A stretch of DNA of 46,455 nucleotides from Bacteroidales bacterium (GTDB taxonomy: Bacteria; Bacteroidota; Bacteroidia; Bacteroidales; UBA932), in the NCBI GenBank assembly GCA_017429765.1, contig JAFROJ010000007.1, positions 1 through 46,455 of the forward strand, in the 5' to 3' direction. Below are positions 30,987-35,465 of this stretch, in pieces. The notes below the pieces were generated by a model. It worked only from the letters and a program-made list of their open reading frames with translations, was not told where the DNA came from and made no database searches. Numbering within the stretch: position 1 is the stretch's first letter; every line of letters begins with the position of its first letter. The position numbers and the translations under genes were made by a program.

Positions 30987-31757
30987 ATGCTCTCGTTGCC
31001 CGCTTTCCGACTGTTCCTGATCGTGATGGCCGTTGTGGCTGTCGCGGTGTTCGTCAGTCTTTTCTTCGTCGACGCGGGTTACGGGAAATTCTACCGGCCC
31101 AAGTGGGGTCCCTCTGTGGATAACCGCTTGGGCTGGACTTTGATGGAGGCACCGGTCTTTATAGCGATGTTGCTTCTTTGGTGGTACTCTGACCGGAGGA
31201 CAGACACGACTAGACTGGTATTCCTTCTTCTTTTCGAGATCCACTATTTCCACCGCTCTTTCCTCTTCCCTTGGCAAATCCGTGGCAGGAGCCGTATGCC
31301 TTTGAGTATCATTATGATGGGCGCCTTGTTCAATAGCTTGAACGCCTTGATGCAAGGAGGCTGGATCTTCTATCTTTCCCCGGCTGACATGTATCCCGTG
31401 AGTTGGCTGACCAGCCTGCCATTCCTGGCAGGGACGGCGTTGTTCTTTTTCGGGATGTCTGTCAATATCGGCTCGGACTCGATAATAAGGAATCTTAGGC
31501 AGCCGGGTGACACGGCGCATTATCTTCCGAAAGGTAGGATGTTCACCTATGTGACGAGCGCGAACTATTTCGGGGAGTTTGTCGAATGGGTGGGTTTCGC
31601 GATACTGACCTGGTCTTGGTCCGGGGCTGTTTTCGCTCTTTGGACATTCGCCAATCTCGCCCCCAGGGCCTCCCGTATCCACGACATGTACGAGAAGGAG
31701 TTCCCGGATGAGTTTGACCCCAAGAAGACAAAGCGGATGATCCCTTTCATCTTCTAA
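30987..31757 (+). CDS. 3-oxo-5-alpha-steroid 4-dehydrogenase (SRD5A) family membrane protein
   Basis: This 256-residue integral membrane protein has about six hydrophobic helices. It carries the family pattern FTYVTSANYFGEFVEWVGFAI (about residues 187-207), close to the NYxGExxEW signature of steroid 5-alpha-reductases, and HYFHRSFLFPW near residue 88. Family members use NADPH to reduce the C4=C5 double bond of 3-oxo-delta4 steroids. In gut Bacteroidales such 5AR proteins act on 3-oxo-delta4 bile acids. It lies 9 bp after the GH3 stop and 4 bp before the OYE gene. Its substrate here is inferred only from family and neighbours. Confidence 0.88.
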   Translation: MLSLPAFRLFLIVMAVVAVAVFVSLFFVDAGYGKFYRPKWGPSVDNRLGWTLMEAPVFIAMLLLWWYSDRRTDTTRLVFLLLFEIHYFHRSFLFPWQIRGRSRMPLSIIMMGALFNSLNALMQGGWIFYLSPADMYPVSWLTSLPFLAGTALFFFGMSVNIGSDSIIRNLRQPGDTAHYLPKGRMFTYVTSANYFGEFVEWVGFAILTWSWSGAVFALWTFANLAPRASRIHDMYEKEFPDEFDPKKTKRMIPFIF

Positions 31758-31761
31758 AAGG

Positions 31762-33003
31762 ATGCCCATCGAGTCGCCCATATTCACACCGGTTCAGATC
31801 GGTCCTGTCACCTTGAGAAACAGGGTGATACGCTCCGCCGCCTTCGAGAATATGGCCTACGGTAACAAGCCCTCGAAGGATTTGATGGACTACCACGTTG
31901 CGGTCGCGAGAGGTGGTGTCGGTATGACTACTCTCGCCTACGCCTCCGTCAACCGGAGCGGGCTCTCTTTCGACGGCCAGTTGTGGATGAGGGAGGAGAT
32001 CGTGCCCGCTTTGAAAGAGATAACTGAAGCCATTCACTCGCAAGGAGCGAAGGCCTCCATACAACTGGGCCATTGCGGGAATATGACTCACCGCTCGACT
32101 TGCGGCTGTACCCCCGTGGGCGCCTCAAGTGGTTTCAACCTCTATTCTCCTACCTTTGTCCGCAAGTTGCGGGAGGATGAGATAGAGTCTCTAGTGGAGG
32201 ACTTCGGCCGTTCTGTGGACTTGGCCCGCCAGGCGGGTTTTGATTGCGTCGAGATTCACGCCGGCCATGGCTACCTGATCAGCCAGTTCCTGTCGCCTTA
32301 CACCAATCATCGCCGGGATCGTTTCGGAGGCTCTCTCGAGAACAGGATGAGACTGATGAGGATGGTTATCAGGAGAGTGATGGAGGCGGCCGGGGATGAT
32401 ATCGGCGTTCTTGTCAAAATGAATATGCATGACGGCTTCCGTGGAGGGATGCGCCGGGAGGAGTGTCTGGAGGTCGCCAAGGAACTGGAAAGACTTGGGG
32501 TTCACGCCCTTGTCCTCTCGGGCGGATTCGTGAGCAAGGCCCCGATGGAAGTGATGAGAGGGGCAATGCCCATCAGGACAATGGCCTATTACATGGATCC
32601 TTGGAAGTTCTGGTGGCTCAAGGCTCTTGTACACTTGTTCGGGCGGGCGATGATCCCCACCGTGCCCTACAAGGACGCCTATTTCCTTGATGACGCCAAG
32701 GAGTTCAGGGCGGCGGTCAAACTGCCCCTTGTCTATGTGGGCGGCATGGTCTCCCGTGATTCGATAGAGGAGGTTCTACGCTCTGGTTTCAGCGCTGTTC
32801 AGATGGCCAGGGCCTTGATCCATGACACTGATTTCGTGAATAAGCTTCATGAAGGGGAGATAGAGCGAAGCGGCTGCAGGCACTCCAACTATTGCATCGG
32901 GAGAATGTACACCCTCGAGATGAGATGCAACCGGTGCGCCGGCGATCTGCCGGCTCCATTGCGTAAGGAGATTGACAAAGCGGAGGAAAGATGGTCGCGT
33001 TGA
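31762..33003 (+). CDS. Old-yellow-enzyme-family NADH:flavin oxidoreductase, candidate 5-beta-reductase
   Basis: The 413-residue FMN enzyme has the OYE barrel opening (FTPVQIGPVTLRNRVIRSAAFE), the active-site stretch EIHAGHGYLISQFLSPYTNHRRD (about 162-184), the RFGGSLENR phosphate-side motif and the late FMN site VYVGGM. A Cys-rich tail has Cys372, Cys378, Cys389 and Cys392. Related reductases (BaiCD, dienoyl-CoA reductase) bind a 4Fe-4S cluster nearby, but here the spacing is unusual and Ser375 sits where a Cys might be expected. Neighbours suggest it reduces 3-oxo-delta4 steroids, possibly to 5-beta products. The 3' end overlaps the SDR gene by 13 bp. Confidence 0.87.
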   Translation: MPIESPIFTPVQIGPVTLRNRVIRSAAFENMAYGNKPSKDLMDYHVAVARGGVGMTTLAYASVNRSGLSFDGQLWMREEIVPALKEITEAIHSQGAKASIQLGHCGNMTHRSTCGCTPVGASSGFNLYSPTFVRKLREDEIESLVEDFGRSVDLARQAGFDCVEIHAGHGYLISQFLSPYTNHRRDRFGGSLENRMRLMRMVIRRVMEAAGDDIGVLVKMNMHDGFRGGMRREECLEVAKELERLGVHALVLSGGFVSKAPMEVMRGAMPIRTMAYYMDPWKFWWLKALVHLFGRAMIPTVPYKDAYFLDDAKEFRAAVKLPLVYVGGMVSRDSIEEVLRSGFSAVQMARALIHDTDFVNKLHEGEIERSGCRHSNYCIGRMYTLEMRCNRCAGDLPAPLRKEIDKAEERWSR

Positions 33004-33755: not shown

Positions 33756-34660
33756 GTGTCCTGGTCTTGGCGCTGGCCGCCTTACCGATGTCCGCGCAAC
33801 GTGTTGAGCTTCTCCCTTTCGGGGATTTCGAGCGTTGGTCATCCCGTCAAATCAAGGAATCCGCCATCATGGGGGGAGAGGTAAAGACTCTTTACACACT
33901 TGGCCCAGAGGGCTCTACCCCTTGGGCCTCATCCAACGCATGGGCAAAGGTTTCAGGCGTGACGAAGACCAGTCTCTCCGTCGAGCCCGATAACGGGCCT
34001 GACGGACGTTGCGCCAAGCTTTCCACGGTCTTCGCCTCATGCCGTGTGGCCGGCCTTGTGGATATACAGGTATTGGCCACCGGCTCCCTGTATTGGGGAA
34101 AGATGTTCGAGCCGATCTCGGGGGTCAAGAATCCATATTCCAATATGGATTGGGGAATCCCTTTCACAGGCCGTCCGACGGCCCTGCTGCTGGATTATAA
34201 GGCCTATTTGCCGGCCACGGGGAAGTTGGTCAAAGGCACCTCGTTCAGAAAGACCGAGTTTCCTGGTGAGGATCCCTGCCAGGTTATGTTGATCCTTCAG
34301 CGACGATGGGAGGACGAGGATGGGAATATTCACGCCTTAAGGGTTGGAACCGCCTTCTCCCGAATAGGGAAAACTACCCCGGAATGGGTGATAAACCACC
34401 GTGTGCCAGTGATTTACGGGGACGCGAGGAACCAACCCGGCTTTCGTCCCTTCATGGACCTGATCAAGGGGGAGAACACCCTCTACGCCGTTAACAGCAA
34501 GGGAAAAAGGGTCCCGATCCTGGAAGAGGGCTGGGCCCCCGCGGGCAGTCCCTGCACCCACGCTGTCTTGCAAATATCCTCCGGGTGCCAAGGTGGTTAC
34601 ACAGGAGCTCCGGGCAACACACTCTGGGTTGACAATATCAGGATGGAGTATGAGCGGTAG
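33737..34660 (+). CDS. Secreted PCMD-domain (putative carbohydrate metabolism domain) protein
   Basis: The 307-residue protein has a signal peptide (MEKIKVSVLVLALAALPMSA, then Gln) and then a single beta-rich domain. It resembles Bacteroidota PCMD proteins: NGDFE-like LLPFGDFERW at the start, SNAWAKVSG, LYWGKMF, GIPFTGRPTALLLDYKAY, and the closing [18 protein letters not shown] proteins are thought to bind glycans at the cell surface. Its place inside an SDR/reductase block, overlapping both neighbours (19 and 11 bp), is unexpected and suggests a role linked to uptake or binding of the pathway's substrate. Confidence 0.75.
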   Translation: MEKIKVSVLVLALAALPMSAQRVELLPFGDFERWSSRQIKESAIMGGEVKTLYTLGPEGSTPWASSNAWAKVSGVTKTSLSVEPDNGPDGRCAKLSTVFASCRVAGLVDIQVLATGSLYWGKMFEPISGVKNPYSNMDWGIPFTGRPTALLLDYKAYLPATGKLVKGTSFRKTEFPGEDPCQVMLILQRRWEDEDGNIHALRVGTAFSRIGKTTPEWVINHRVPVIYGDARNQPGFRPFMDLIKGENTLYAVNSKGKRVPILEEGWAPAGSPCTHAVLQISSGCQGGYTGAPGNTLWVDNIRMEYER

Positions 34661-35465
34661 GATCATAATCACGGGCGCGTCGGGAGCGATGGGAGCCGTG
34701 GCGACAAAGGCCATGGCGAGGGAAGGCCACAAGGTTGTGATGGCTTGCCGGAATATGGAGAAGACCGAGTCTGTCAGAAGACAGATACTTCAGGAACTCC
34801 CTCGAGCCGAGATCGAAATCAAAATGCTTGACCTCTCCTCGATGAAGTCTGTCCGTCGTTTCGTGGATGATTTGGGAGACGAGCCGGTCAGCGCCCTATT
34901 CAATAACGCCGGGGTTATCAGCAAAGGATATTCATTGACTTCGGAAGGTCTTGAGAACACATTCGCGGTCAATTATTTCGGCCCGTTCATACTTACTGGT
35001 CTCTTGCTGCCCTGGATGCCAAACGACGCCAGGATAGTCAACATGGTGTCCCTGACTTGCCGTTTTGTCTCCGTGTCCGAGCCGTCGCTTCAACCCGCTT
35101 CATCCGACTTCTCCCTACTGGGAACATACGCCCGCTCGAAACTATGCTTGCTTAGATTCTCACAGGAACTCGCGAGGAGATATCCTGACCTCAGGGTCAA
35201 CCTCGCCGACCCCGGGATAGTCAACTCGAACATGATCTCGATGGGGCGTTGGTTCGATCCTTTGGCTGACTTGCTGTTCCGCCCGTTCTGCAAGTCGCCG
35301 GAGAAAGGGGCCCGACCCGCTGTCGCCGCCCTGTCCTCCGGAGAGAGAAACCGATATTTCATCGGGAAACAGGTTCTGGTTATTCCCGAAACCTACTCCG
35401 ATCCGGAGTTGGACAGCCGTTTATGGGCTGAGACTGAGAGGATTATCAGACAGAAAGACTTATAA
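34650..35465 (+). CDS. Short-chain dehydrogenase/reductase, retinol-dehydrogenase-like
   Basis: From the ATG at 34650 the protein is 271 residues. It has TGASGAMG (8-15), [12 protein letters not shown] (about 85-88), catalytic Ser near 133 (VNMVSL), Tyr159 and Lys163 (YARSK). The pattern fits the retinol dehydrogenase/protochlorophyllide-reductase-like SDR branch and differs from the other SDR in this block, so it may act on another position or stereoisomer. A longer in-frame start at 34593 would lie deep inside the PCMD gene; the 34650 start overlaps that gene by 11 bp and puts the Rossmann strand right at the N-terminus. Confidence 0.85.

Follow-up and report, generated by a model that had tools for sequence, protein, structure and literature searches.

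A predicted steroid A-ring reduction cluster in a Bacteroidales genome includes a gene for an exported PCMD-domain protein whose relatives also adjoin sterol sulfonation genes

What is the function of a compact run of five genes that combines a steroid reductase-like membrane protein, a flavoenzyme, two short-chain dehydrogenases/reductases (SDRs), and an exported PCMD-domain protein in a member of the Bacteroidales? We addressed this question for positions 30987 to 35465 of contig JAFROJ010000007.1 (assembly GCA_017429765.1), the complete 46,455-nucleotide contig (the window herein) belonging to a 2.36-Mb genome in 75 contigs. Judging from the sequences, we give a probability of about 0.6 to the reading that the block is an operon for steroid A-ring isomerization and reduction that includes a steroid-handling PCMD protein of the cell envelope, the PCMD proteins serving both A-ring reduction and sterol sulfonation. 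The core of the block, comprising the SRD5A-type, Old Yellow Enzyme (OYE)-type, and two SDR genes, belongs to a cluster type already known from the Bacteroidota; the PCMD insertion is a variant, and the presence of the same PCMD subfamily at operons for two kinds of steroid modification is a new lead.

All five open reading frames (ORFs) lie on the plus strand. g1 (30987 to 31757; PF02544 Steroid_dh, 9.6e-42) encodes an SRD5A-type membrane 3-oxo-delta4-steroid 5alpha-reductase (5AR) of 256 amino acids, and g2 (31762 to 33003; PF00724 Oxidored_FMN, 1.9e-57) encodes an OYE-type flavin mononucleotide (FMN) reductase of 413 amino acids, a putative 5beta-reductase/delta4-dehydrogenase (5BR). g3 (32991 to 33755; PF00106 adh_short, 3.5e-38) encodes a classical SDR of 254 amino acids, which we call SDRa, a candidate 3-hydroxysteroid dehydrogenase (HSDH) for which the 3alpha side is proposed. 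It is followed by g4 (33737 to 34660; PF13201 PCMD, 2.8e-21), encoding an exported PCMD-domain protein of 307 amino acids, and by g5 (34650 to 35465; PF00106, 2e-22), encoding an SDR of 271 amino acids from the ATG at 34650, which we call SDRb, a candidate 3beta-HSDH. The spacings are, in order, +4, −13, −19, and −11 bp, and the ORF check and Pfam families agree exactly with the genes, coordinates, gaps, and overlaps in the initial annotation. That annotation had likened the block to the A-ring reduction clusters of gut Bacteroidales with SRD5A-, OYE-, and HSDH-type genes, a comparison borne out by homology and synteny.

The g1 product aligns nearly end to end with a bacterial structure (PDB 7c83, 3.2e-50) and with human SRD5A2 (7bw1, 3.2e-42), its best matches being steroid 5alpha-reductases and not fatty-acid or polyprenol enzymes. 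In human SRD5A2, the Q56A/L, E57L, and Y91F substitutions lose activity, and Q-E-Y is called a signature (PMC7815742, which together with PMC7591894 supplied the residue roles used here). A g1 relative was present in 137 of the 150 loci scanned. The catalytic residues E54 and Y87 of g1 are conserved, and all 137 Bacteroidales relatives found retain the residues that correspond to human E57 and Y91. D164, R171, E197, and R227 are kept in 135 of 135 aligned Bacteroidales sequences, and N160 and N193 in 134 of 135. Disruption of the 5AR of Parabacteroides merdae stopped the formation of allolithocholic acid (alloLCA) derivatives, according to a review (PMC10382948), which also describes the 5AR gene as clustered with genes for a predicted 3beta-HSDH and a BaiCD/BaiH-like flavin oxidoreductase, hypothesized to be a 5beta-reductase. 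In the indirect route set out in PMC9645264, 3alpha-HSDH and 5BR turn a 5beta bile acid into the 3-oxo-delta4 intermediate, from which 5AR and 3beta-HSDH yield the isoallo product.

As in this Bacteroidota isoallo cluster, the SRD5A-type gene of the window adjoins the OYE-type gene and SDR genes; the window differs in the PCMD gene inside the run, in having two SDR classes, and in its flanks. 5AR occurs in 60 of the 149 genomes of the family to which the window genome belongs, and in 40 loci fetched from these 60 genomes, a g2-type OYE lies beside 5AR in 36 (one of them partial) and is absent in four (our loci L052, L053, L058, and L061). We also compared 80 named loci, the top-ranking ones among at least 588 confirmed OYE relatives; 67 of them hold 5AR, and some of the other 13 are cut by contig ends. 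Because 67 of 80 loci fetched with OYE hold 5AR too, the block exceeds what would be expected by chance. The gene-order comparison across the Bacteroidales that the initial annotation had proposed covered 117 OYE loci (the window, 36 family loci, and the 80 named loci, with overlapping SDR matches resolved). Near OYE, 103 of these loci have 5AR, 82 have SDRb, and 42 have SDRa; 32 have both SDRs, and 14 have PCMD. The order is 5AR-OYE-SDRa-SDRb in Barnesiella, Odoribacter, Coprobacter, and others; the Odoribacter, Barnesiella, and Coprobacter loci hold relatives of all four window core genes. The Bacteroides and Phocaeicola clusters have the order 5AR-OYE-SDRb, and these loci and those of Parabacteroides massiliensis hold relatives of three core genes, SDRa not among them. 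In the window, PCMD is inserted between SDRa and SDRb. Since SDRb is common in the clusters, the second SDR is a usual member of them, and it is PCMD that varies: the suggestion that the second SDR was an addition to the described clusters is rejected, SDRb being the commoner SDR of such clusters, and PCMD stands as a variant feature that is not exclusive to this genome.

A midpoint-rooted tree built from 129 sequences (the two window genes and 127 locus hits of ≥200 residues) places the two SDR genes in separate clades, one of 48 SDRa (support, 1.0) and one of 81 SDRb (support, 0.86); by both SDR class and cluster clade, an SDR-type dehydrogenase gene is adjacent. We propose that SDRa acts on the 3alpha side and SDRb on the 3beta side, because SDRb adjoins 5AR in Bacteroides and P. 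massiliensis and SDRa is found in Parabacteroides distasonis-type clusters; for P. distasonis, review tables list a 3alpha-HSDH, and one table lists a 3beta-HSDH too (PMC12789469, PMC12692668). The presence of two SDRs would suit a route that starts on the 3alpha side and ends on the 3beta side. Six Parabacteroides loci (L135 to L140) have OYE-SDRa without 5AR nearby, with an RND efflux pump upstream in four of the six.

The g2 product shares the OYE-type FMN barrel with the BaiCD/BaiH bile-acid flavoenzymes of Firmicutes, which are longer (about 640 amino acids; model length, 642). Against the NCBIfam BaiCD model it scores 188.7 bits, with its best stretch at residues 7 to 260, and does not reach the cut-off of 825. 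A C-terminal C-x-H-x-N-x-C ... C motif (C372, H374, N376, C378, and C389) is invariant in all 36 aligned sequences, chosen from 81 available from the window and named loci, and by eye resembles what we take to be the cysteine motif of FadH-type enzymes. A possible Fe-S or metal site may thus be located at the g2 C terminus, without the usual second domain.

The g4 product scores 76.8 bits against Pfam PCMD (gathering score, 28) and has an apparent N-terminal signal peptide by eye, in keeping with the export proposed in the initial annotation; its further proposal of a surface component is unproven, as g4 has no lipobox cysteine and would be periplasmic or secreted. E24, D30, E41, E125, D153, D179, E192, D193, E263, and D299 are invariant in eight aligned cluster-linked members. 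Profile matches to PDB structures 3hbz, 4het, and 4jrl span about 100 residues, a partial alignment; the titles of these structures call them putative or hypothetical glycoside hydrolases, and we know of no function assigned to them. A literature search found no paper on PCMD/PF13201 and none on a steroid-binding periplasmic protein.

A g4-type PCMD (E < 1e-20) occurs in 41 of the 149 family genomes, 37 of them with 5AR, and in 48 of 295 genomes of the order, 31 of them with a g2-type OYE (E < 1e-100, itself in 48 of 295), counts that are confounded by relatedness and habitat. Of 30 PCMD loci examined from the 41 positive family genomes, nine have PCMD within the 5AR cluster or next to it (seven from the clade of the window, the window included, and two others). 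Other genomes in which PCMD adjoins 5AR include those of Barnesiella, a member of the Rikenellaceae, and Candidatus Enterocola, with differing order and strand; PCMD is present in seven of the 80 named loci, in six within 2.5 kb of the OYE/5AR span, and three genomes from a single further family have it divergently oriented next to 5AR, with 632 to 678 bp between the matched stretches. relA and dtd were rejected as PCMD neighbors in the window genome's family, where Pfam showed an M6-type peptidase instead. As a separate observation, an SDRa 46 to 50% identical to g3 directly precedes PCMD and a FolB-type gene in L323, L324, and L326; such SDRa-PCMD pairs lie 10 to 14 kb from 5AR-OYE (L322 to L324) or in a genome without a strong 5AR-OYE match.

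The same PCMD subfamily is found in a second setting. In Parabacteroides-family genomes (family inferred; L330, L334, and L337, the last stretch ending at CysC), genes for CysQ, a DASS-type anion symporter, CysC, CysD, CysN, and a Sulfotransfer_3 protein are followed by PCMD, and Bacteroides fragilis S82 (L401, 3421 to 10658) has the complete order CysQ-DASS-CysC-CysD-CysN-sulfotransferase-PCMD. L332, L402, and L403 likewise have CysQ-DASS-CysC-CysD-CysN-sulfotransferase operons with PCMD last. This gene order matches that of the published BT_0411-BT_0416 cluster; PMC9417993 reports that BT_0416 sulfonates cholesterol and that the cluster is found in Bacteroides ovatus and B. fragilis too. The main text of that paper does not name a PCMD gene and does not mention BT_0417, and a literature search on BT_0417, with subscription papers outside its reach, returned nothing relevant. 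Among the 295 order genomes, the sulfotransferase (E < 1e-150) occurs in 25, of which 24 have PCMD; PCMD is directly 3′ of it on the same strand, with 39 to 183 bp between matched stretches, in 11 of the 25, from four families, and the other 13 with both genes have them widely separated or on separate contigs. In a named-locus set of 25 genomes chosen by us, six of them for PCMD near 5AR, PCMD was found in 25 at E 0.001 (strong in 24) and the sulfotransferase in 19, with the two adjoining (39 to 145 bp, same strand) in 13 of the 19; the order and named-locus sets share at least three sulfotransferase genomes, two with the adjacent pair. In the order sample, PCMD comes within 2 kb of 5AR in four genomes (the window genome and three of one family), none of which has a sulfotransferase match. 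In an Odoribacter metagenome-assembled genome (MAG) (L407, 4091 to 18579), a sulfonation operon lies ∼6.3 kb from 5AR-OYE-SDRa-SDRb on the same strand, and the two may form an island of steroid-modification genes.

In a phylogeny of 85 PCMD sequences, for which sampling was unequal and some loci were included for having PCMD near 5AR, 18 members near 5AR required seven parsimony changes and 16 next to a sulfotransferase four; 23 lie by the M6 peptidase and three by SDRa. All contexts together required 13 changes, compared to at least 40 in 200 shuffles. As a control, 251 non-core neighbor families of 5AR-OYE loci were scored across 15 OYE groups, and three of them occur in at least three of the 15. 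Adjacency to 5AR alone is suggestive and not unique; the steroid case for PCMD stands because the sulfonation link adds to it.

On homology, conserved catalytic residues, and synteny, the block would act as follows. The SDR g3, as the proposed 3alpha-HSDH, would interconvert 3-hydroxyl and 3-ketone; the flavoenzyme g2 would interconvert 5beta-3-oxo and 3-oxo-delta4 steroid; g1, in the inner membrane, would reduce the 3-oxo-delta4 to the 5alpha-3-oxo form using NADPH; and g5, as the proposed 3beta-HSDH, would set the 3beta-hydroxyl. Overall, a bent 5beta bile acid or another delta4-3-keto steroid would become a flat 5alpha-3beta product; substrate, direction, the stereochemical split between the SDRs, and the entire PCMD function are inferred. 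The exported g4 protein belongs to a subfamily that, as gene neighborhood suggests, would serve both pathways by binding or presenting steroids or steroid conjugates within the envelope. Human SRD5A2 probably draws its steroid from the membrane (PMC7591894), so an exported steroid-presenting protein is plausible. More broadly, the PCMD subfamily could be an envelope factor that gut Bacteroidales devote to handling steroids, common to A-ring reduction and BT_0416-type sulfonation, which would bind or present hydrophobic steroids between the outer and inner membranes; we put this forward tentatively, at somewhat less than an even chance.

Several observations weigh against this interpretation. 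For the core, the position of human Gln56 is Met in g1 (residue 53) and in 137 of 137 Bacteroidales sequences, so that this family is M-E-Y, a real difference from Q-E-Y; g2 is without the second domain of BaiCD; and the comparison was with relatives of the characterized proteins of P. merdae, O. laneus, and B. dorei, the clusters found to match the window core being those of P. massiliensis, an Odoribacter MAG, and Phocaeicola massiliensis. No bile-salt hydrolase (PF02275) was found in the window genome, which would therefore need free bile acids supplied by others or would act on different steroids. For PCMD, the putative steroid role is suggested by gene neighborhood, and the window genome has no sulfotransferase match at E 0.001. 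A secreted M6-type peptidase gene adjoins PCMD in 21 of the 30 family loci, and 25 of the 85 tree members are in none of the scored contexts. In the neighbor-family control, a glutamine cyclotransferase family, usually part of one conserved stretch, is level with PCMD (5 of 15 groups and 12 loci, versus 5 of 15 and 14 loci), and with looser grouping PCMD is in two of six groups versus three of six for the families of that stretch.

The close spacing continues past the five genes, which corrects the extent given in the initial annotation. A leading run at 27063 to 30977 on the plus strand, with gaps of 19, 17, and 9 bp up to g1, encodes an exported protein of no family, a flavodoxin-like lipoprotein (28045 to 28875), and a GH3 glycosidase (28893 to 30977), and a PF00756 esterase gene (35485 to 36648, plus strand; 3.7e-17) starts 19 bp after g5. 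The upstream region (27022 to 27062) contains the promoter-like sequence TANNTTTG at 27030, which we take to be a Bacteroidetes promoter motif. Within 26900 to 36700, this is its only intergenic copy on the plus strand (another lies within g2), so a single transcript from 27063 to 36648, including the leading and trailing genes, is possible. Speaking against it, a sigma-70-type scan (11 sites found versus 4.6 expected) marks 28855 to 28884, just before the GH3 gene. Neither the leading genes (at E 1e-6) nor the esterase gene has a relative in the 40 family loci. A wider conserved neighborhood was rejected, as flanks are lineage-specific: aconitase/isocitrate dehydrogenase/citrate synthase in Bacteroides; an RND efflux pump, ribosomal L25, and peptidyl-tRNA hydrolase in Parabacteroides; and a GFO/IDH oxidoreductase, M28 peptidase, and GH5 upstream in L033. 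Farther downstream in the window (36652 to 37974, minus strand), a beta-lactamase-fold protein weakly matches the NCBIfam model for 3-succinylated cholic acid synthase, scoring 73 of 800 bits.

These flanks raise the question of whether the natural substrate might be a dietary plant sterol or a steroid aglycone freed by the GH3 enzyme and the esterase instead of a bile acid. The two genes lie 9 and 19 bp from the block, the nearest NCBIfam model of the esterase is a xylanase/feruloyl esterase (247 of 1200 bits, far under the cut-off), and the missing bile-salt hydrolase would fit; the lack of conservation of these flanks, including the different upstream genes of L033, and the co-occurrence of bile-salt hydrolase with 5AR in the family (33 of the 36 genomes with strong matches, E 3.2e-42 or better, among 149) make this unlikely. 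A role of the cluster in lipid housekeeping, with g1 as a reductase of this fold for polyprenols or very-long-chain enoyl substrates, is very improbable: the match to the enoyl-CoA reductase art-1 (9.7e-10) is far weaker than the nearly full-length matches to steroid 5alpha-reductases, by which a fatty-acid or polyprenol role is rejected, and both the OYE and SDR partners and the published role of the clustered Bacteroidota 5AR (PMC10382948) point to steroids.

For PCMD, the alternative is an unrelated exported glycan-binding protein whose steroid neighborhoods reflect common descent or habitat. Pfam calls PCMD a carbohydrate domain, consistent with the titles of its nearest solved relatives; a common gut lifestyle would be consistent with its occurrence alongside 5AR and bile-salt hydrolase; and the glutamine cyclotransferase family recurs by cluster as widely. 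The seven changes of 5AR context on the tree, the variation in order and strand relative to 5AR among lineages, and the tight codirectional linkage to a second steroid pathway argue the other way, and we regard this explanation as doubtful. It is more improbable still that PCMD is an exported hydrolase that strips steroid conjugates of their sugar, sulfate, or acyl group; the invariant acidic residues and the location beside steroid enzymes would suit such an activity, but no catalytic family is recognized in PCMD, and a desulfating enzyme would oppose the pathway in the sulfotransferase operons. The steroid-handling envelope protein is the reading that we prefer for g4.

A-ring reduction and sterol sulfonation both matter to the host: isoallo-bile acids from gut Bacteroidota inhibit Gram-positive pathogens (PMC10382948), and a Bacteroides sterol sulfotransferase alters host cholesterol in mice (PMC9417993). 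The location of PCMD beside both 5AR and steroid-sulfating genes hints at an unrecognized helper in gut steroid chemistry, and an exported family adjoining the two pathways provides a concrete gene target for the handling of steroids in the envelope.

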